Below are positions 372 through 17,397 of a stretch of DNA of 64,000 nt, in pieces. Position 1 is the first letter of the stretch. Every line of letters starts with the position of its first letter. A model generated the notes under the pieces. It searched no databases. It was not told the origin of the DNA and worked only from the letters and a program-made list of their open reading frames with translations. Made by a program: the position numbers and the translations under genes. The stretch covers positions 1,411,121 through 1,475,120 of the forward strand of contig NC_015577.1 in the NCBI RefSeq assembly GCF_000214355.1. The letters run 5' to 3'. This DNA is from Leadbettera azotonutricia ZAS-9 (GTDB taxonomy: Bacteria > Spirochaetota > Spirochaetia > Treponematales > Breznakiellaceae).

Positions 372-3312
372 ACGCCTGGGGCTTTGTTCGGCTTACTCGC
401 TACTCTATGGGGTGCGGCGGCCGGAGGATATGATACAAGCCGCCAAAATCTGCGGAACCGATACCCTTAGTTTTACTGACCGGGATAATCTGTACGGTTT
501 ACCTGTCATTCTGGAAAAATCTAAGGAAATGGGGATACGCCCTATTATCGGTGCTTGCCTGACGGTTCCGGGAAAGGGGGCGGTCTACTGCTTTGTTAAA
601 GACCGGCAAGGGTACTCCCGGCTCTGTGAAATTTTAACTATGAGAAATCGGGATAAGGAAAATTACAAGCCTGTATCATTACTGCGGCAGGATGCTGCCG
701 GGCTTATTTTGGCTTCTTCGGATGAGGTTATTTTGGAAGCGTTGGCGGGCCGCTCTCAATCTTTGTATGCGGCAATTAGCCCCGATTCCCTTGGGGCCAT
801 AGGCCCCAGCCGTAGGCTTGGCGTTCCGCTGGCCTTTCTGGATACTGCCCTGTTTTTGGAAAAAGAAGATTATCCGATTCACCGGGTGCTGCGGGCTATT
901 GATTTGGGTAAAACGGTCGGCAATTTGAGCGAAGGGGATACGGTAAAAAAGGATAGTCATTTGCTCCTTTCTGATTCGGTATTGGCGGGGCGGCTCTCAT
1001 CGTGGCCGGAAGCGGTGAAGGGAACGAAGGAAATTAGCGCGGCTTGCGTTTACCATGAACTATTTGAGGACTGGATTTTTCCGGGGTACACAACGGAAAC
1101 AACACCGGGGGATGAATTATACAAGCGGGTACTGGAAGGGGCGGCGGCCCGGTATGGGGAATTGGGGGATGCTGAATTAGGGCGTATTGATTACGAATTG
1201 GGGATCATCAACAGCAAGGGGTTTGCGCCGTATTTCCTCGTGATGGATGATATTGTCCGTATGGCTTCCCGAACCTGTGGGCGGGGGTCGGGAGCGGCTT
1301 CTATTGTGTCGTATTCATTAGGGATTACCAATGTTGACCCTTTGCGACACCATTTATATTTTGAGCGGTTCTTAAACCCTGCGAGACCTGACCCCCCGGA
1401 TATTGATGTTGATTTTGCATGGGATGAACGGGATGATCTGATTAAACGGGTGATAGAGCGGTTTGGAAAAGATCGCTGCGCCCGTGTTGCCAATCATAAT
1501 ATGTTCAGGCCCCGGTCGGCTTTTCGAGAAGCGGCAAAGGCGTATGGCTTTGGGGACGCTGAAATTTCGCAGATAGAAAAGCAATTGTTTCACTTTGGAG
1601 ATAAGTCGGGTGTGAGTGATCCGCTCTGGTTGGAAATTCTTGATATTGCGAAAAAAATTGAAGGGCTGCCCCGTGGCTTATCCATGCACTGCGGGGGGCT
1701 GGTGATTACCCCGGAACGGATAGACAGGTATGTACCGATAGAAAATTCTTTGGACGGATACCCGCTGTTAAGCTGGGAAAAAGACGGAACAGAAGCGTCC
1801 GGGTTTGTAAAAATTGATCTGCTGGGGAACCGTTCTCTCGCGGTGATCCGGGATGCTCTTTCCAACCTTGAGGAACAGGGGATTTCCATTGACCGGGATA
1901 CCTGGCGGCCTGTTGAGGATGGCCCTACGGTAGCGGCCCTGGCCCGTGGGGATAGCATGGGGGTGTTTTACATTGAGTCTCCGGCTATGCGGCAATTACA
2001 GAAAAAAACCGGGGCGGGGGATTTTGAGCATATTGTTATTCATTCCAGTATTATACGCCCTGCGGCAAATACGTTTATCAATGAGTATGTGCGCAGATTA
2101 AAGGGCGGGGCATGGGAACCGCTTCATCCACGGCTGGCGTACATTCTGGATGAGACCTACGGGATTTTATGTTACCAAGAGGATGTGAGTAAGACGGCGG
2201 TGGCGCTGGCAGGGTTTGACGAAGTTGAAGCGGATAAACTGCGGAAGGTGATTGCAAAAAAGGCAGAGATAAAACTTGCGGCGTATGAAAAACAGTTTTT
2301 TGAGGGGTGCAGGAAAAACGGTGTTACTGAGGATGTAATACAAAAAATATGGGACATGATGTTGAGTTTTGACGGGTATAGTTTTTGTAAGCCCCACTCG
2401 GCTTCGTATGCAATGGTTTCTTTCCAATCGGCTTATTTGCGGGTTCATTTTCCGGCTGAATTTATGGCGGCGGTGTTGTCCAATCAAGGCGGGTATTATA
2501 GGCCCCATGCGTATGTTGCGGAATGCCGCCGTATGCGTTTGCGGGTTCAGGGGCCGGACGTGAATACAAGCCGGTGGCGGTATTACGGAGAACAGGATAC
2601 GGTAGTTGTGGGTTTTATGGCGGTTAAGGGGCTGTCCGCTTCCGGTGGGGAATCGATTATTGCGGAGCGGGAACGGGGTGGCTCTTATAAAAGCCTGGGG
2701 GATTTTGCACGGCGGGTTAAGTTGGGCCGGGATGATATTATTGCCCTTTGCCCTGCGGGGATTTTTGACAATATCGCAGAAGGGCGGGAACGGACATTAC
2801 AAGCGCGAGAACTATTGAAGGCCCATACCGGGGCGGCCCGGAGGGGACAGGATGAATTGTTTGCCGCAGAGGTGGCCCCGGTGTATCGGTTTGGCGGGGG
2901 GGCAGCACTGGCCCCGGCTCCGGTGAAAAAGAAAACGGTCAATGAGGAGTTATGGGAGGAATACCGGGCATTGGGATTCCTGCGGAACCTTCATCCGCTG
3001 GCTTTGTGGAAGGATAAGGTTTTAGCGGTCAAGCGGGTTAAGGCGGTGCATATTGGGGAATACCTGGGGCGGTATGTCTGTTTGGTGGGGTGGCCCATTA
3101 CCCAAAAAGAGGTCTGGACAAAGGACGGTCTTACCATGTCATTTTTAACCTTTGAAGATGAAACGGCTTTGTATGAAACGGTTATTTTCCCTAAGGTCTA
3201 TGATAGGTATGGCAGGTTGTTGTTTGATCAAGTCCCGCTGTTGGTGTATGGGCGGGTGTGTGAGGATAACGGGGCGGTGTCGCTGGAGGTGGAGAAGGTG
3301 GAGGGGATGTGA
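364..3312 (+). CDS. DnaE-type DNA polymerase III alpha subunit (DnaE2/ImuC-like)
   Basis: 982 residues. The order is an N-terminal PHP-like domain (1-270), polymerase core with GRGSGAAS (~307) and PDIDVDF (~345-351, two catalytic aspartates), a third aspartate in VKIDLLG (~484), helix-hairpin-helix (~750-800) and a C-terminal OB-fold (~880-960). The PHP domain begins LGLCSAYSLLYG where active PHP domains have LHxHS, so the first metal-binding histidines are missing. ATG 364 overlaps the upstream Y-family stop; an earlier in-frame codon at 316 would add residues unlike the family. DnaE2-class enzymes work with Y-family partners in error-prone lesion bypass. Codon use is phage-like, suggesting the pair belongs to the mobile element. 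Confidence 0.85.
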   Translation: MRERLGLCSAYSLLYGVRRPEDMIQAAKICGTDTLSFTDRDNLYGLPVILEKSKEMGIRPIIGACLTVPGKGAVYCFVKDRQGYSRLCEILTMRNRDKENYKPVSLLRQDAAGLILASSDEVILEALAGRSQSLYAAISPDSLGAIGPSRRLGVPLAFLDTALFLEKEDYPIHRVLRAIDLGKTVGNLSEGDTVKKDSHLLLSDSVLAGRLSSWPEAVKGTKEISAACVYHELFEDWIFPGYTTETTPGDELYKRVLEGAAARYGELGDAELGRIDYELGIINSKGFAPYFLVMDDIVRMASRTCGRGSGAASIVSYSLGITNVDPLRHHLYFERFLNPARPDPPDIDVDFAWDERDDLIKRVIERFGKDRCARVANHNMFRPRSAFREAAKAYGFGDAEISQIEKQLFHFGDKSGVSDPLWLEILDIAKKIEGLPRGLSMHCGGLVITPERIDRYVPIENSLDGYPLLSWEKDGTEASGFVKIDLLGNRSLAVIRDALSNLEEQGISIDRDTWRPVEDGPTVAALARGDSMGVFYIESPAMRQLQKKTGAGDFEHIVIHSSIIRPAANTFINEYVRRLKGGAWEPLHPRLAYILDETYGILCYQEDVSKTAVALAGFDEVEADKLRKVIAKKAEIKLAAYEKQFFEGCRKNGVTEDVIQKIWDMMLSFDGYSFCKPHSASYAMVSFQSAYLRVHFPAEFMAAVLSNQGGYYRPHAYVAECRRMRLRVQGPDVNTSRWRYYGEQDTVVVGFMAVKGLSASGGESIIAERERGGSYKSLGDFARRVKLGRDDIIALCPAGIFDNIAEGRERTLQARELLKAHTGAARRGQDELFAAEVAPVYRFGGGAALAPAPVKKKTVNEELWEEYRALGFLRNLHPLALWKDKVLAVKRVKAVHIGEYLGRYVCLVGWPITQKEVWTKDGLTMSFLTFEDETALYETVIFPKVYDRYGRLLFDQVPLLVYGRVCEDNGAVSLEVEKVEGM

Positions 3313-3349
3313 GATGTGCTCCTTAAAGAAGAAATTACTCCGATACTGG

Positions 3350-3375
3350 TAGTGTCCCTTACAAGAGGGACACTA
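3350..3375. terminator. Hairpin between the polymerase gene and the DUF262 gene
   Basis: A perfect 10-bp inverted repeat (TAGTGTCCCT at 3350-3359, AGGGACACTA at 3366-3375) with a 6-nt loop lies between two convergent genes. No long T-run follows on either strand, so it may be a weak bidirectional terminator or the remnant end of an inserted segment. Confidence 0.4.
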
Positions 3376-3418
3376 GGCATTTTCGGTACCTGACACCTAT
3401 GCGTTGCCAGAAAAACAA

Positions 3419-5545
3419 TCAGGTTCTTACAAATTTTCCAATTGAGAACGTATTCCACCATTCATTGTAAATATTAACCATTCGTGTAGAGATTGCTCTA
3501 TATAAATTTTGATCATCCTTTTCATTTTTTATTCTATTAGTGATTTCCTTCCAATATTCCCAATCATTATCTAAGACGAATGATATTTGTCGCAAATATT
3601 CTCCCTTCAGCCCATCATCTTGATCATCTAATCGTGCGGCTGGTGACAAAATGTTATTTTCGCTTCGATTTTGGGTTAAAGATAGTGCTCTAAAATTACC
3701 AATTGATGTATTCCATTCTCGTATGCTATCTAAAATTCCTTGTTTATAGTATATCCAACTATCAGGATAGATATGATCCTGATCCCATGGCGAATCAGTA
3801 TCTTCAAGATCGTCTAATTGGTTGAAATCTGAAAATTCTTTATTTATATAATCCCTTTGAGCAAACAATACTAATTTTTTAAGATAGAATATTTTATTAA
3901 TAAACATAGAAAAATAGTTTGAGATTTGTTCATCTGTAAATTTTTTTGAAATATTTTTATAATATTCGACAATTGCCATACCTACTTTAATAGTCCTTGG
4001 TAACTCCCAAATATCATTTTCTTTAGCATAATCAATATCTGTAAAATGTTTCATAACAGTAGTGTTTGCATAATAATCATACAGCATTTCTGGTGCTATG
4101 ACTGGCAATAATGTTTTTCCAAAATACTCATTTAACGGTTTAGTCCAGAAATCAGCAGTAGAATTATGTTCCCAAAAACCTTGAACTGTTTCTTCTTCTC
4201 CTGAGAGCGAAAAATATGAGCAAACCATTAATTTTGCAACACATGGTTTTTTATTTTCATTAGCTATTATAAAATTATTCTTGTATATCCAATAAATCAA
4301 AAATAAAAATAAAGTCTGTGAAGATTTTATAAAATCTTTTACAAGTATAGGAGGAACATTTACACTATCAGTCAACAGAAGTGTGTCAATTGCAACATCA
4401 AATGCCTGTTTAATGGGGCTGGAAATATCGTTGCCAATTAAATCCGTTAGTTTATTTCGAAACCCTTTTCTCTTTAAACGTTCTTGAAATGTTTTTACAT
4501 TCAGTTTTGTATGATATTTTCGATCTGGCTCAAGTTCACTCATAGCAATTCGTGATGCAATATTAATAATTTGAGTGGGAGGAATAAATGATCGACCTAT
4601 TTTCTCAACTAAATCTTTTGTTTGCGGAAACAATGCCTTATATATTGAATAGATTAAGTCATCGCCGCTTAATGATGTACCAGACGAGTTAATTCTTACG
4701 AAAAGCGTTGGATCAGCGCTGTCATCTTCGATATTATCCTCAGTTAATAAAACCTCATCGCCAACTAAGTCGTAATTAATTTTAGTATCTTTAATTTCTA
4801 TTAACTTTTTGCATATGTTTTCAAGTGTCTCATACAAGTTTTTTTCAAGTTTTTCAATAAATTTTTCTTTTGATGAAAAATAATTATATTTTGTTACTAA
4901 ATATTCTGGCAGGAAAGTTCTGCAGTCTTCAATTACAGCATCTGCTATATCACCTGAATTTGACATTTGTTTATAAAATATTTTATCTAAAAAAAATGAA
5001 AGTGGGATTGGATAATATGAATCATACGGAAAGACAGTTTTATTGCTAAAAGTTGTATACCCTTTGCCATTATTATCAGGAAATTGCTCAAATATTTTTA
5101 ATGCACTTCGTTTATCAGCAACACTCAAAATGCCGCGATTTTGGTTAGAATTTTGACGATACCCCCATGGTTGTGAACGTGTGGTAACACGAAAAAGATA
5201 TTTGCGATCTCCTAGATCTGTTGTATCAGGTTTAATATCCAACCAGATAACCGGAAGTGAACCTTTTATAGACCAAGCAGTCATGTTTTCTATAAATGGA
5301 TTATAAAATCCTAATGCAATTGCTGTTGCACGTTGTTGTCCATCCATTAAATAATTTTTATTTTCACCAGCCTTTGAGAACAAAAAAGAGCCAATAGGAA
5401 ATTTGCGTAACAATGAGTCCCATAAATTCTCTATTTGTGCATACTTCCACACGAAACCCCGTTGCATTGAGGGTAACATAACATTTGAATCATCGTTATT
5501 TAATTGCCAATTTGCAATTGTAGTTAATGATAATCTTTCTTCCAT
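3419..5545 (-). CDS. DUF262/DUF1524 protein (GmrSD-like, probable anti-phage nuclease)
   Basis: 708 residues. The N-terminal DUF262 (ParB-like) domain carries DGQQRATAI at ~68, the nucleotide-binding signature. The C-terminal DUF1524 domain carries the HNH-like DQDHIYPDSW at ~587, followed by the family pattern of a conserved Asn/Arg region (SIGNFRALSLTQNRSENN). This two-domain layout is that of the fused type IV restriction enzyme GmrSD and related defence proteins, which cleave modified DNA in an NTP-dependent way. The gene is far more AT-rich than both flanks and points against them, so it looks like inserted defence cargo. An AAAGGAG ribosome-binding site lies just upstream of the ATG. 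Target specificity cannot be read from sequence. Confidence 0.8.
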   Translation of the reverse strand: MEERLSLTTIANWQLNNDDSNVMLPSMQRGFVWKYAQIENLWDSLLRKFPIGSFLFSKAGENKNYLMDGQQRATAIALGFYNPFIENMTAWSIKGSLPVIWLDIKPDTTDLGDRKYLFRVTTRSQPWGYRQNSNQNRGILSVADKRSALKIFEQFPDNNGKGYTTFSNKTVFPYDSYYPIPLSFFLDKIFYKQMSNSGDIADAVIEDCRTFLPEYLVTKYNYFSSKEKFIEKLEKNLYETLENICKKLIEIKDTKINYDLVGDEVLLTEDNIEDDSADPTLFVRINSSGTSLSGDDLIYSIYKALFPQTKDLVEKIGRSFIPPTQIINIASRIAMSELEPDRKYHTKLNVKTFQERLKRKGFRNKLTDLIGNDISSPIKQAFDVAIDTLLLTDSVNVPPILVKDFIKSSQTLFLFLIYWIYKNNFIIANENKKPCVAKLMVCSYFSLSGEEETVQGFWEHNSTADFWTKPLNEYFGKTLLPVIAPEMLYDYYANTTVMKHFTDIDYAKENDIWELPRTIKVGMAIVEYYKNISKKFTDEQISNYFSMFINKIFYLKKLVLFAQRDYINKEFSDFNQLDDLEDTDSPWDQDHIYPDSWIYYKQGILDSIREWNTSIGNFRALSLTQNRSENNILSPAARLDDQDDGLKGEYLRQISFVLDNDWEYWKEITNRIKNEKDDQNLYRAISTRMVNIYNEWWNTFSIGKFVRT

Positions 5546-13820: not shown

Positions 13821-14174
13821 ATGCGCTGGAAAGACCCGGTTGATCGGTATAAGTATCAAGTGCGGAAACAACAGAAGGCGTTAGAGGAATTTGCCGCCCA
13901 TGAAATTGAGTGGGCGGATGACCTTTTGATGTGGTATCGGCTTAAAAAAATTGATATGCCCGATGACGAATACCGGGCGGCGGCGTTCTTCAAGAACCAT
14001 GAGTATTTACACAAGCCGGGGTCGCTGACGCTCCTTTTCTCGATGTACCAGCGGTGCATGGATGAATTGCCGGAACCGACACCGGAGCTTGCGTTTGATC
14101 TGTTGGCGTTCAGGTACAAGATGTACGCGAAGGCTTTATTGCAGGGAGGGTATGACGTATGGCAGAACCAGTAG
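13821..14174 (+). CDS. Hypothetical protein preceding the phage helicase
   Basis: 117 residues, highly charged and helical (KYQVRKQQKALEEFAAHEIEW), no signal peptide or membrane segment. Start ATG 13821 follows GGGGGGAGAGG. It overlaps the helicase gene by 16 bp, so the two are probably translated together and may act together in replication. No known family is recognised. Confidence 0.5.
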   Translation: MRWKDPVDRYKYQVRKQQKALEEFAAHEIEWADDLLMWYRLKKIDMPDDEYRAAAFFKNHEYLHKPGSLTLLFSMYQRCMDELPEPTPELAFDLLAFRYKMYAKALLQGGYDVWQNQ

Positions 14175-15553
14175 GGGATGAATCGATTTATTATAGGCTG
14201 AAAGAGCTTAAAGAGGGGACAATCCAGTATACCGATACCAGTAACGCTTTGCGTCTGGTGCGGGAGCATGGGAAGGACATCCGGTATAATGCGGCATGGA
14301 AAAAATGGGTGGTGTGGACCGATAACCATTGGCAGATTGACGAGGGGTTCTTGATCCATGACAAGGGGCTGGCGGTTATCCACAGTATTTATGACCAAAT
14401 GCTTAAAACTGACGATTACCGGGATAGGATGGAGATTGAAAAATACGCCTTGCAGAGTGAAGCCCTGCGGCGGCGTAAGGCGTTTATTGAATCGGCATCG
14501 CTGATGAAGGAGATGAACATTACCAGTACGGATGTTGATAAAGACCCGTGGCTGTTCAACGTGGAGAACGGGACTATTGATCTGCGGAAGAATGAATTCC
14601 GGGAACACCGCCGGGAGGATATGATTACCAAGATTGCCCAGGTGCATTATGACGAAAAAGCGGATTGCCCGGTCTGGAAGCAGTTTATCCGGGAGGTTAT
14701 GGACTACAAGGGCGAACTGATCGAATTTCTCCAGCGGGCGGCGGGATGGGCTTTGACGGGGGATACCTCGGAACAGACCATGTTTATTTTGTTCGGCTCC
14801 GGTGCGAATGGGAAAAGCACGTTTTTGAATGTGCTGATGAAACTCCTGGGGGATTATGCGATTGCGGCTTCCACGGAAACGTTTATGAAAAGGAGCGGGG
14901 ACCAGATTAGCAATGATATTGCACGGCTGCGGGGAACCCGGTTTGTGGTAACTTCCGAAGCGGAACAGGGGAAGCGGCTTTCGGAACCCTTGATTAAGCA
15001 GATTACCGGGACGGATGCTATGACCGCCCGCTTTCTGTACGGGGAGTATTTTGAATTTATTCCGACCTTTAAAATTTTTATGGCAAGTAACCACAAGCCG
15101 ATGATCAAGGGGACGGATAACGGGATTTGGCGGCGGATTAAGCTGATCCCCTTTATTACGACCATTGCGCCGGAGAAACAGGACAAACATCTGGAACAGA
15201 AACTGATGGAGGAGGGGCCGGGGATTTTGAACTGGCTTATTGCGGGGTGCCAATACTGGTTTAAGACGGGGCTTGCGGCCCCGGCGGTTGTCACTTCCGC
15301 TACGGAGGAGTACCGCAGTGAAATGGATGTGCTGGGGGCGTTTATAAAAGAGTGCTGTATCCAGTCGCCGGGGGTTTCTGTCCAGGCACGGGAACTGTTC
15401 AAGGCGTACCAGGAATGGTGTGAGGAAAACAATGAACGAGCCTTTAGTGAGCGGTTCATGGCTATGCGGCTGAAGGAAATGGGGCTTGAGAAGTGGCGGA
15501 CGGCGGAGGCCCGGTTCTGGCGGGGGATTATGCTTAAAGCGGAGTTGTCGTAG
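14159..15553 (+). CDS. P4/D5-type phage DNA helicase (primase C-terminal family)
   Basis: 464 residues. A D5_N-like region (~60-190, including DPWLFNVENGTIDLR) precedes an SF3 helicase domain with Walker A GSGANGKST (~213-221) and the downstream ITGTDAMTARFLYGEYF, FMASNHKP and NGIWRRIKLIPF motifs typical of P4-family primase-helicases. Full members usually add an N-terminal primase domain and reach 700-900 residues; here it is missing, so the protein is probably a replicative helicase that needs a separate primase. It is the last gene before a strong terminator. Confidence 0.85.
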   Translation: MAEPVGDESIYYRLKELKEGTIQYTDTSNALRLVREHGKDIRYNAAWKKWVVWTDNHWQIDEGFLIHDKGLAVIHSIYDQMLKTDDYRDRMEIEKYALQSEALRRRKAFIESASLMKEMNITSTDVDKDPWLFNVENGTIDLRKNEFREHRREDMITKIAQVHYDEKADCPVWKQFIREVMDYKGELIEFLQRAAGWALTGDTSEQTMFILFGSGANGKSTFLNVLMKLLGDYAIAASTETFMKRSGDQISNDIARLRGTRFVVTSEAEQGKRLSEPLIKQITGTDAMTARFLYGEYFEFIPTFKIFMASNHKPMIKGTDNGIWRRIKLIPFITTIAPEKQDKHLEQKLMEEGPGILNWLIAGCQYWFKTGLAAPAVVTSATEEYRSEMDVLGAFIKECCIQSPGVSVQARELFKAYQEWCEENNERAFSERFMAMRLKEMGLEKWRTAEARFWRGIMLKAELS

Positions 15554-15631
15554 TTCCTGCGTTTCCCCCCTGCCCCCTTTGCTGTGGGCCGTGAAGACAT
15601 GGCGGTATAAAAATAGGCGTTTTTTGTGTGC

Positions 15632-15669
15632 GCTCTGTTGCTATTGAGTAGGCAGCAGAGCCTTTTTTT
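15632..15669 (+). terminator. Intrinsic terminator after the phage helicase gene
   Basis: A 10-bp stem with one G-U pair (GCTCTGTTGC at 15632-15641, GCAGCAGAGC at 15652-15661), a 10-nt loop and a following run of eight T. It closes transcription of the phage run about 80 bp after the helicase stop. Confidence 0.85.
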
Positions 15670-15970
15670 TATACGAAAATAAGCGGTTTTTGCTTCGTGT
15701 TTTTCGTTTTGACAGGATTTTGAATTTGACTTACACAAAAACGGGCAATTTAAGCGGGCGCGCGCTCCCCCCTTGGCTAAAAAAAATATCCGGCTTTGGC
15801 ATGAAAAAATGTCGCTTGCGCCGACACATTGACGGGTTATTCATCGGCTATGCGTCATTGAAATTCGGCGGTTTTGTAGTAATCGGGCGTGATTTATCTT
15901 TAGCGTTCCTTATATAATATTTTTCTTGACGCTTCTGTCATTTAAAAAAGAATACATATTACCTTGTAAT
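15670..15970. other. AT-rich non-coding stretch with a possible promoter
   Basis: About 300 bp without a convincing gene. It contains TATAAT at 15913-15918, with TGATTT 17 bp upstream as a weak -35, pointing toward the GC-rich hairpin zone. This could drive the structured region to its right; the -35 match is poor. Confidence 0.3.
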
Positions 15971-16459
15971 CCCTTGGAAAAATGTTCTAAATTGAAAACA
16001 CCATGTCAATCTGACATTGGGGAAAATCGGGGGGGGGGGGGGGGGTGGTTTTTCACCAGGCCCCCCGAAGGGGGGCGGGGACGGCGGCTTGGGTTCATCA
16101 GTCCGCCGCCCCGAAGGGGGGCGGGCGGTTCACCCATCGGCGGCGGCGGCGTTGGGGGTATCGGCCCGCCCTCCCCGCAGGGGTGGGCGGGTGTTACGGA
16201 GGGACCAGGCTTCATCACCCAACATCGGCCCCGGTTCGGGGGAGAAGGCGGCGGTCAGGGAATTGGGGATGATGGTTTCCGCTGTAAACTTTTGCCGCCT
16301 ACCCGGAGGACCGCAGGGCCGGAGGGGGGGCGGTTATTGCCGATGAAGGTAACGGTCTGCCCTCTGGGGAACTTTTTACCAGCCGATAAATGCGCCGCAC
16401 TATAGCCGACAACGTTGCCGCTGACAACCCGCCGCATTGCGGCGGGTGAGTATTTTTTT
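15971..16459 (+). ncRNA. Candidate structured RNA A (hairpin-rich, ends at a terminator)
   Basis: About 490 bp without a plausible protein. It holds a run of 17 G at 16029-16045 and several strong hairpins: a 7-bp stem at 16060-16076 with a GAA tip; a long GC stem around 16103-16127, also with a GAA tip; a 7+4-bp stem at 16165-16191 (CCCGCCC paired with GGGCGGG, GCA tip); and a 9-bp stem at 16427-16447 that is part of a terminator. Repeated CCCC-GAA-GGGG or CCCC-GCA-GGGG tips suggest a shared structural module. Calling it an RNA is inference from folding potential. Confidence 0.35.
16427..16459 (+). terminator. Intrinsic terminator closing candidate RNA A
   Basis: A perfect 9-bp stem (ACCCGCCGC at 16427-16435, GCGGCGGGT at 16439-16447) with an ATT triloop, followed by GAG, then TATTTTTTT (7 T at 16453-16459). 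Good geometry for Rho-independent termination on the plus strand. Confidence 0.75.
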
Positions 16460-16555
16460 GGGGGGCGGGCGTAGCCGGGCGGAGCCCCCCCCACATACGC
16501 TACCTTATTGCGGGGGGGGTGTGGGGGGGGCAGAGCGAACCCCCCAAAAAAATAC
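16450..16555. repeat. Nested 106-bp palindrome
   Basis: Outer perfect 16-bp inverted repeat: positions 16450-16465 (GTATTTTTTTGGGGGG) and 16540-16555. Inside it is a second perfect 12-bp pair, GCCCCCCCCACA (16484-16495) and TGTGGGGGGGGC (16520-16531). The left outer arm overlaps the T-run of the preceding terminator. It could be a cruciform, a bidirectional terminator or the trace of a small inserted element. Confidence 0.65.
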
Positions 16556-16559
16556 GAAT

Positions 16560-17390
16560 ATGAGTGATGAGTGGCGGGGGCCGAGAGGCCCCTGCCCGAA
16601 GAACGAAAACCAGGGGCTTACAAAGTTCGCTGTGCTTTTTCTAACTACCTCTTTGCTTTAGGACTTAAAGGGGACGGGCTTTGTCTTACGCTGATACTGG
16701 TGGGGTAGATAAAGTTTGCTGACTGGGTGTTGGAGAAATGCTTTTATACGGGGTATTCGGGCGGCGTGTGCGCCGCTGTTTATAGGCTTTAGCACGGATA
16801 CGGCATGGAGGGGGGCCGTGAGGATAGGCCCCCCGGAATGTCCCCGTTGGCATGGAAGCCAACGGGGAATTGGGTTTAATGCTTGTGGGGATGATTGCCG
16901 AATTGCGGCAGTTGGGGAATGAAGGCCCCGGTTTGCGAAGGGATCAGGCGGAAAAGCCGGGGTGCCGGTGGTACCCGGAGAAGCGCAGCGCCGGAGGGGG
17001 CCATCGGCCAGGATACGGCTTTAGGCGGCCCGGAGTTGCCCCATGCGGTCTAGTCCCCATGAGGGCTAGGCGGTATGGGGCAATGGGAGGGCCGCTGTTT
17101 GTATGCCCCGGCTTTGGAGGACAGCGGGTAAATGCTTCAAAATGGGGGTTGTGGCTTCCGCTGGCAATCTTCGGATTTTGCTTCACTTGCCGACTAATGC
17201 GCCGCTTGCCCCGAAGGGGATAGCGGCGGTTATTGGGGTTTAAGGCATCGGGCGGCCCGGAACGGGACATGACCAACTGAACGGAGCGACCAAAGGGAGC
17301 GGAGAGAGGGCGGGGATGAACCGTGGAGGGCTGCCCTTGGGACGGCGGCATACAATGATTTGAAAAAAACCCGGAGGGTTTTTGACTATT
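16560..17390 (+). ncRNA. Candidate long structured RNA B (about 800 nt)
   Basis: No convincing protein; an open frame at 16852-17223 has unusual composition and its ATG lies in a hairpin loop. Stems include 16573-16596 (10 bp, GAGA loop), 16761-16776 (6 bp), 16810-16834 (8 bp), 16841-16868 (11 bp perfect), 16896-16910 (5 bp), 17036-17083 (9 bp enclosing a 7-bp inner stem), 17092-17127 (7 bp) and 17201-17227 (6+4 bp, CCCC-GAA-GGGG tip). The series ends at an intrinsic terminator at 17365. This density of consecutive, mostly perfect stems resembles large phage-encoded RNAs such as GOLLD or ROOL in character, not in sequence. Confidence 0.4.
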
Positions 17391-17397
17391 TTTTTCT
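17365..17397 (+). terminator. Intrinsic terminator closing candidate RNA B
   Basis: AAAAACCC (17365-17372), GGA loop, GGGTTTTT (17376-17383), then GACTATTTTTTTC. The arms are A- and T-rich, so it could act in both directions. Confidence 0.65.

Follow-up and report, generated by a model that had tools for sequence, protein, structure and literature searches.

In the 64,000-nt stretch of DNA analysed here (the window), which is part of the chromosome of Leadbettera azotonutricia ZAS-9 (Breznakiellaceae; 3,855,671 bp, single contig), a hairpin-rich block forms the final element of a tailed prophage, immediately 3′ of a primase-helicase gene (Table 1). An integrase, a terminase large subunit, a portal protein and more phage-type genes are found 5′ of the block, and the integrase, terminase and portal lie within the same element, showing that the block is phage-encoded. 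The first host genes follow from ~17722, downstream of the block. The only tRNA gene of the window (Pro) is on the opposite strand, ~2.8 kb downstream of the block and past host genes. When an attachment repeat was sought for the prophage, the top shared 12-mers were at chance level. The prophage is seemingly interrupted between its head and connector genes (window −10733 to 5545, i.e., G000:C1:1400387-1416665); judged by eye, the intervening genes resemble a restriction-modification set, genes for DUF262-type proteins and DNA polymerase genes.

Table 1. Features at the end of the prophage and parts of the putative RNA (window positions).
Feature	Position	Strand	Remarks
Phage primase-helicase gene	14159–15553	+	D5_N, Pox_D5-like; PHROG DNA primase; gene preceding the RNA in relatives
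AT-rich gap	15554–15960	.	Conserved GC-rich motif 15747–15776; candidate replication origin or operator region
Terminator-like hairpin with T8, end of primase operon	15632–15669	+	Second prophage of ZAS-9 has one too
Promoter-like site TTGACG, 16 nt, AAGAAT	15926–15953	+	Consensus match only; could start the RNA
Putative large structured noncoding RNA gene	15960–17395	+	Ends approximate
5′ domain hairpin, 16164–16176 with 16180–16192, U-U mismatch, then conserved GTGTTACGGAGG strand	16164–16203	+	Covariation, 13 sequences
Helix 16247–16266 with 16406–16422, closing second 5′ subdomain that holds GCCGCCTACCCGGAGG...GGGCGGTTATTG hairpin	16247–16422	+	3 compensatory cells
Central module M2: hairpin 16427–16447; helix 16450–16465 with 16540–16555 (U7/A7, G6/C6); inner hairpins	16427–16555	+	
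Hairpin with conserved CGAGAG loop	16573–16596	+	Stem compensated in L059, L049
Hairpin CCCCGTTGGC / GCCAACGGGG	16842–16867	+	Compensated in relatives
Highly conserved 3′ domain (model R1)	16947–17120	+	Closing helix 16953–16962 with 17106–17115
Arms of 3′ domain	16964–17008, 17024–17096, 17035–17084	+	Model R1
3′ hairpin with CCCCGAAGGGG tip	17191–17232	+	Kept in relatives
Terminator-like hairpin AAAAACCC GGA GGGTTTTT with T7	17365–17395	+	Probable RNA end

The original prediction described dense stems between the end of the phage and the chromosome, a repeated hairpin tip and the lack of a good protein, all of which held on inspection. The stems are present at that place, and the tip CCCCGAAGGGG occurs three times (16062–16073, 16108–16119 and 17208–17219). 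The block contains only short open reading frames, and no Pfam family matched the three longest of them. Codon-type conservation, which had been named as evidence for a hidden protein, was not seen in the 3′ domain, where indel lengths among homologues are almost never divisible by 3 and the substitutions are distributed across all three phases. Thus, with short reading frames, no Pfam match and indels that break the frame, a protein-coding origin was rejected, and the 1.4 kb block is non-coding. The 5′ end of the RNA region contains a 17-G tract (16029–16045), which is missing in the second prophage of ZAS-9 and is possibly length-variable.

Compared with dinucleotide shuffles, the predicted fold of 15980–16462 gave z = −3.2, with 1 of 100 shuffles as good, and that of 16556–17396 gave z = −8.0, with none of 20 shuffles as good. 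In 300-nt windows along this copy, z was only −0.5 to −1.6, measured against shuffles that hold composition inexactly. Because these local values are weak, we take covariation, rather than folding energy, as the decisive evidence.

A block occupies the same place in a second ZAS-9 prophage, with 88% and 79% identity in two stretches, compared with 75% for the stretch containing the neighbouring primase. Primase homologues occur in 28 of 150 genomes of the family, and the DNA 3′ of 20 of them was compared. One of these loci ended early at a contig edge; in the remaining ones, an AT-rich gap precedes a GC-rich block (partial in L054, where the contig ends), with block lengths in uncut relatives of 0.7 to ~2.5 kb (for L049 a value of 3.5 kb was obtained, which is probably too high). 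Of the 21 loci, 17–18 are recognisable against the window copy or the common module, either by sequence or with a covariance model, while L061, L064, L066 and L067 are tied in only through position and short motifs judged by eye.

In the alignment, a 5′ domain (hairpin plus GTTTTACGGAGG) is followed by a central module and the 3′ domains. The central module of many relatives, M1, consists of an A7-hairpin-U7 and then CCCTCCCCC...GGGGGAGGG around GAGCCGT, and it is replaced by M2 in the window copy and in L059 and L049. In one phage, the 5′ hairpin is present three times in tandem. Within M1 of L051 and L052 lies an insertion whose ends form a perfect inverted repeat (TTTTTTCCACTGTCCCAGCG / CGCTGGGACAGTGGAAAAAA), suggesting that the RNA grows by insertion of whole hairpins.

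A covariance model of M1 (R2) found matches in 25 of 200 Breznakiellaceae genomes, spanning 17 genera. Samples of the order (294 genomes, 15 positives) and of the phylum (393 genomes, 2 positives) gave positives in Breznakiellaceae and no match outside this family. The 3′ domain model of the window copy (R1) recovered eight loci in five genomes. Named matches are Treponema or Spirochaetia assemblies, which we take as termite-derived from their isolate names, and a single bin labelled Bacteroidales, probably through misbinning. Matches in IMG/VR are limited to two proviruses, 650716099 (apparently of ZAS-9) and 650716102 (apparently of ZAS-2); the former carries the same primase and RNA motifs, and a core-motif scan of that collection found nothing further. 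In a blastn search of phage GenBank records, neither the window RNA nor an M1 region gave a match. To date, the family is known only from prophages of termite-gut spirochetes (Breznakiellaceae).

Two further copies were observed. A third ZAS-9 copy (L113 5650–8100, G000:C1 ~2085650–2088100) keeps the gap motif; neither a primase nor another phage gene was found near it, and it is probably a prophage remnant. On the reverse strand of L114 (genome G105), at ~3000–4200, a truncated copy starts just 3′ of the apparent end of a tmRNA gene; the tmRNA 3′ end is a typical prophage attachment site. A search of the ZAS-9 genome for dispersed copies of the block found matches confined to phage-type loci, and a dispersed repeat was rejected.

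The original prediction proposed that compensatory changes in the stems of homologues would support a functional RNA, and such changes were found. In the model-fitted alignment of M1, 19 of 43 pairs show changes on both sides, with 71 compensatory cells compared with 18.4 after shuffling and 6–29 with the pairing partners slid. Because an alignment fitted to the model leans towards its structure, the analysis was repeated blind to structure: 28 loci were aligned by sequence only with MAFFT, and covariation was scored with an R-scape-like script of ours against substitutions simulated along the tree; the covariation null is thus our own implementation. In this repeat, 14 of 144,453 column pairs reached E ≤ 0.05. 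Most of these belong to a pair of nested helices: one is a local hairpin, and the other (GGTGGTTTATGGACGG with CCGTCCATAAACCACC) is long-range and surrounds the entire M1 domain; a few are adjacent or non-complementary and were excluded from the support.

The window copy has no M1, in which covariation is strongest, and its own centre was compared in three phages only (the window copy, L059 and L049). The consensus fold of this type has 39 compensatory cells (8–15 when slid) and 50 broken cells (61–79 when slid), with the hairpins at 16573–16596 and 16842–16867 as examples of compensation. In the 5′ hairpin, a U-U mismatch is retained inside a stem whose pairs interchange freely. Since MAFFT misplaced the arms of this hairpin, they were aligned by a set pattern, which left out 4 of 17 sequences. 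The 3′ domain shows 7 compensations compared with 0–3 when slid, its conservation being too high for many changes. A consensus structure that covaries beyond a tree-based null, as expected of a new RNA family, was thus found for M1, and the window type rests on fewer sequences.

These results bear on the reading of the block as a functionless pile-up of mobile hairpin elements or a degenerate coding sequence. Whole hairpins are indeed inserted, duplicated and swapped among relatives, and block lengths vary. However, such a pile-up accounts neither for compensatory change across helices nor for the same post-primase position in relatives of many genera, nor for a block identity that exceeds that of the adjoining coding stretch. 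The frame-breaking indels and the absence of dispersed copies in the own genome argue against it as well, and we regard it as extremely improbable. The compensatory changes, together with the absence of codon-type conservation, instead support the large structured RNA that had been predicted, and we are highly confident that the block is a functional structured RNA.

Three observations point to the plus-strand RNA as the functional form. First, G·U pairs greatly outnumber A·C pairs in the consensus helices (123:19 and 185:17), a ratio in which G·U is favoured because folding was predicted for the plus strand. Second, the plus strand folds more stably than the minus strand (−381 vs. −284 and −107 vs. 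−86 kcal/mol). Third, a U·G pair is conserved at one position in 28 of 30 sequences. The same evidence bears on the possibility that the hairpins act as DNA, e.g., as single-strand initiation sites or cruciforms of a phage origin, with no RNA involved. While many near-perfect palindromes adjoining a primase gene and AT-rich DNA with many repeats would fit this possibility, long-range covarying helices that enclose whole domains, U·G pairs conserved on one strand, the strong folding asymmetry and conserved unpaired stretches would not, making it very unlikely.

Two intrinsic terminators, dividing the region into separate transcripts of ~500 and ~800 nt, had also been predicted. Both terminator-like sites, at 16427 and 17365, exist, and an A7-hairpin-U7 is found at the equivalent place of the former in relatives. 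However, in the site at 16427–16459, the U7 that follows the hairpin pairs with an A7 ~90 nt downstream (at 16545, in the long helix of M2), and one relative shows compensation in this helix, suggesting that the central site is probably an internal helix. In relatives, moreover, the equivalent hairpin lies inside a long-range helix that covaries and so links the sequence on either side of this hairpin. Five terminator-like sites were found compared with 4.1 expected by chance, and the promoter and terminator matches are within what chance would allow. Since the U-run appears to be paired across the supposed end and a helix spans the equivalent hairpin in relatives, one RNA of ~1.4 kb is more likely than two transcripts, and termination at both sites to give two separate RNAs seems quite unlikely.

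At the sequence level, we regard the homology, the non-coding nature, the covarying stems including long-range helices, the plus-strand bias and the swapping of modules as established. The ~1.4 kb block is very probably one large folded noncoding RNA of an undescribed family, whose size and setting can be compared with those of the phage RNAs GOLLD and ROOL. The fuller reading, a single ~1.4 kb plus-strand noncoding RNA that belongs to a new modular prophage family located after the primase, with its mechanism left as probable, is likely.

Comparison with known families agreed with the earlier statement that the block has no sequence likeness to GOLLD or ROOL. A search of the window and its relatives with Rfam 15, at gathering and permissive thresholds, returned only tRNA and chance matches; the GOLLD, ROOL, OLE, group I intron and group II intron models all gave no match. 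A literature search with incomplete journal coverage found neither this RNA nor anything similar. OLE is a chromosomal RNA of Gram-positive bacteria, ~600 nt in length; the new RNA is likewise large, ornate, conserved and noncoding, whereas it is prophage-borne and without an Rfam match to OLE.

GOLLD is a very large, modular RNA with many stems, found in prophages and phages, whose 3′ part is better conserved and whose 5′ part is variable (PMC12286853). As recently shown, both GOLLD and ROOL assemble into homo-oligomeric cages made of RNA only (PMC12286853). While the new RNA is also phage-encoded, very large, many-stemmed and modular, it differs from GOLLD in being larger (~1.4 kb here and up to ~2.5 kb in relatives), in being known only in Breznakiellaceae and in lying outside a tRNA array, after a primase gene. 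Like the new RNA, ROOL is a large ornate prophage RNA; the new RNA is about twice as long and has another gene neighbourhood. The new RNA thus works at most like GOLLD and ROOL and is a member of neither.

The terminator of the upstream operon and the promoter-like and terminator-like sites of Table 1 lead us to propose that the RNA has its own transcription unit. Transcription would start at a promoter in the AT-rich gap beyond the primase operon, and the plus-strand transcript would end near 17395 as one molecule. As has been suggested for GOLLD and ROOL, this RNA may then work in trans while the phage passes through its cycle, in the form of a folded RNA or an RNP particle, and it may be stable, abundant and self-associating via its many arms. 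Such a particle-like mode of action, proposed by analogy, is tentative.

Its main rival is a role in phage replication, in which the RNA would be made from or across an origin in the gap and would control or prime replication with the primase-helicase, as plasmid replication RNAs do. An iteron-type origin would show AT-rich DNA with a recurring motif next to a replication gene; over the 21-locus set, TGTCAT/ATGACA repeats number 46 compared with 3.1 expected and are present in 13 of the 21 gaps. Yet these repeats could be operators, exact TGTCAT copies are missing in 8 of the 21 loci, and the window's own gap has one. In addition, the third ZAS-9 copy keeps gap and RNA without a primase, though it may be a remnant. 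As in replication RNAs such as ARRPOF and ColE1 RNA II, a structured RNA here lies beside an origin-like region and a replication gene, whereas the new RNA is far larger than these and matches no Rfam family. We therefore consider a replication role unlikely, and prefer, tentatively, the particle-like action.

Only a handful of structured RNAs of very large size are known from bacteria, and little is understood of what they do biochemically. In its boldest form, which we put forward more tentatively still, our proposal is that this is a third great class of ornate phage RNA beside GOLLD and ROOL, with exchangeable modules, forming an RNA-only or RNP particle and encoded beside the phage origin. 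If true, this class would be confined to phages of termite-gut spirochetes and would rank with the largest structured noncoding RNAs that bacteria have apart from rRNA. A family that is larger than GOLLD and ROOL, unrelated to them and placed in another phylum and another gene context would suggest that giant phage RNAs have evolved repeatedly. The swapping of modules, seen in the exchange of M1 and M2 and in the tandem 5′ hairpins, offers a natural experiment on the evolution of giant RNAs, and copies in two complete genomes, apparently those of the cultured termite spirochetes ZAS-9 and ZAS-2, make direct testing possible.
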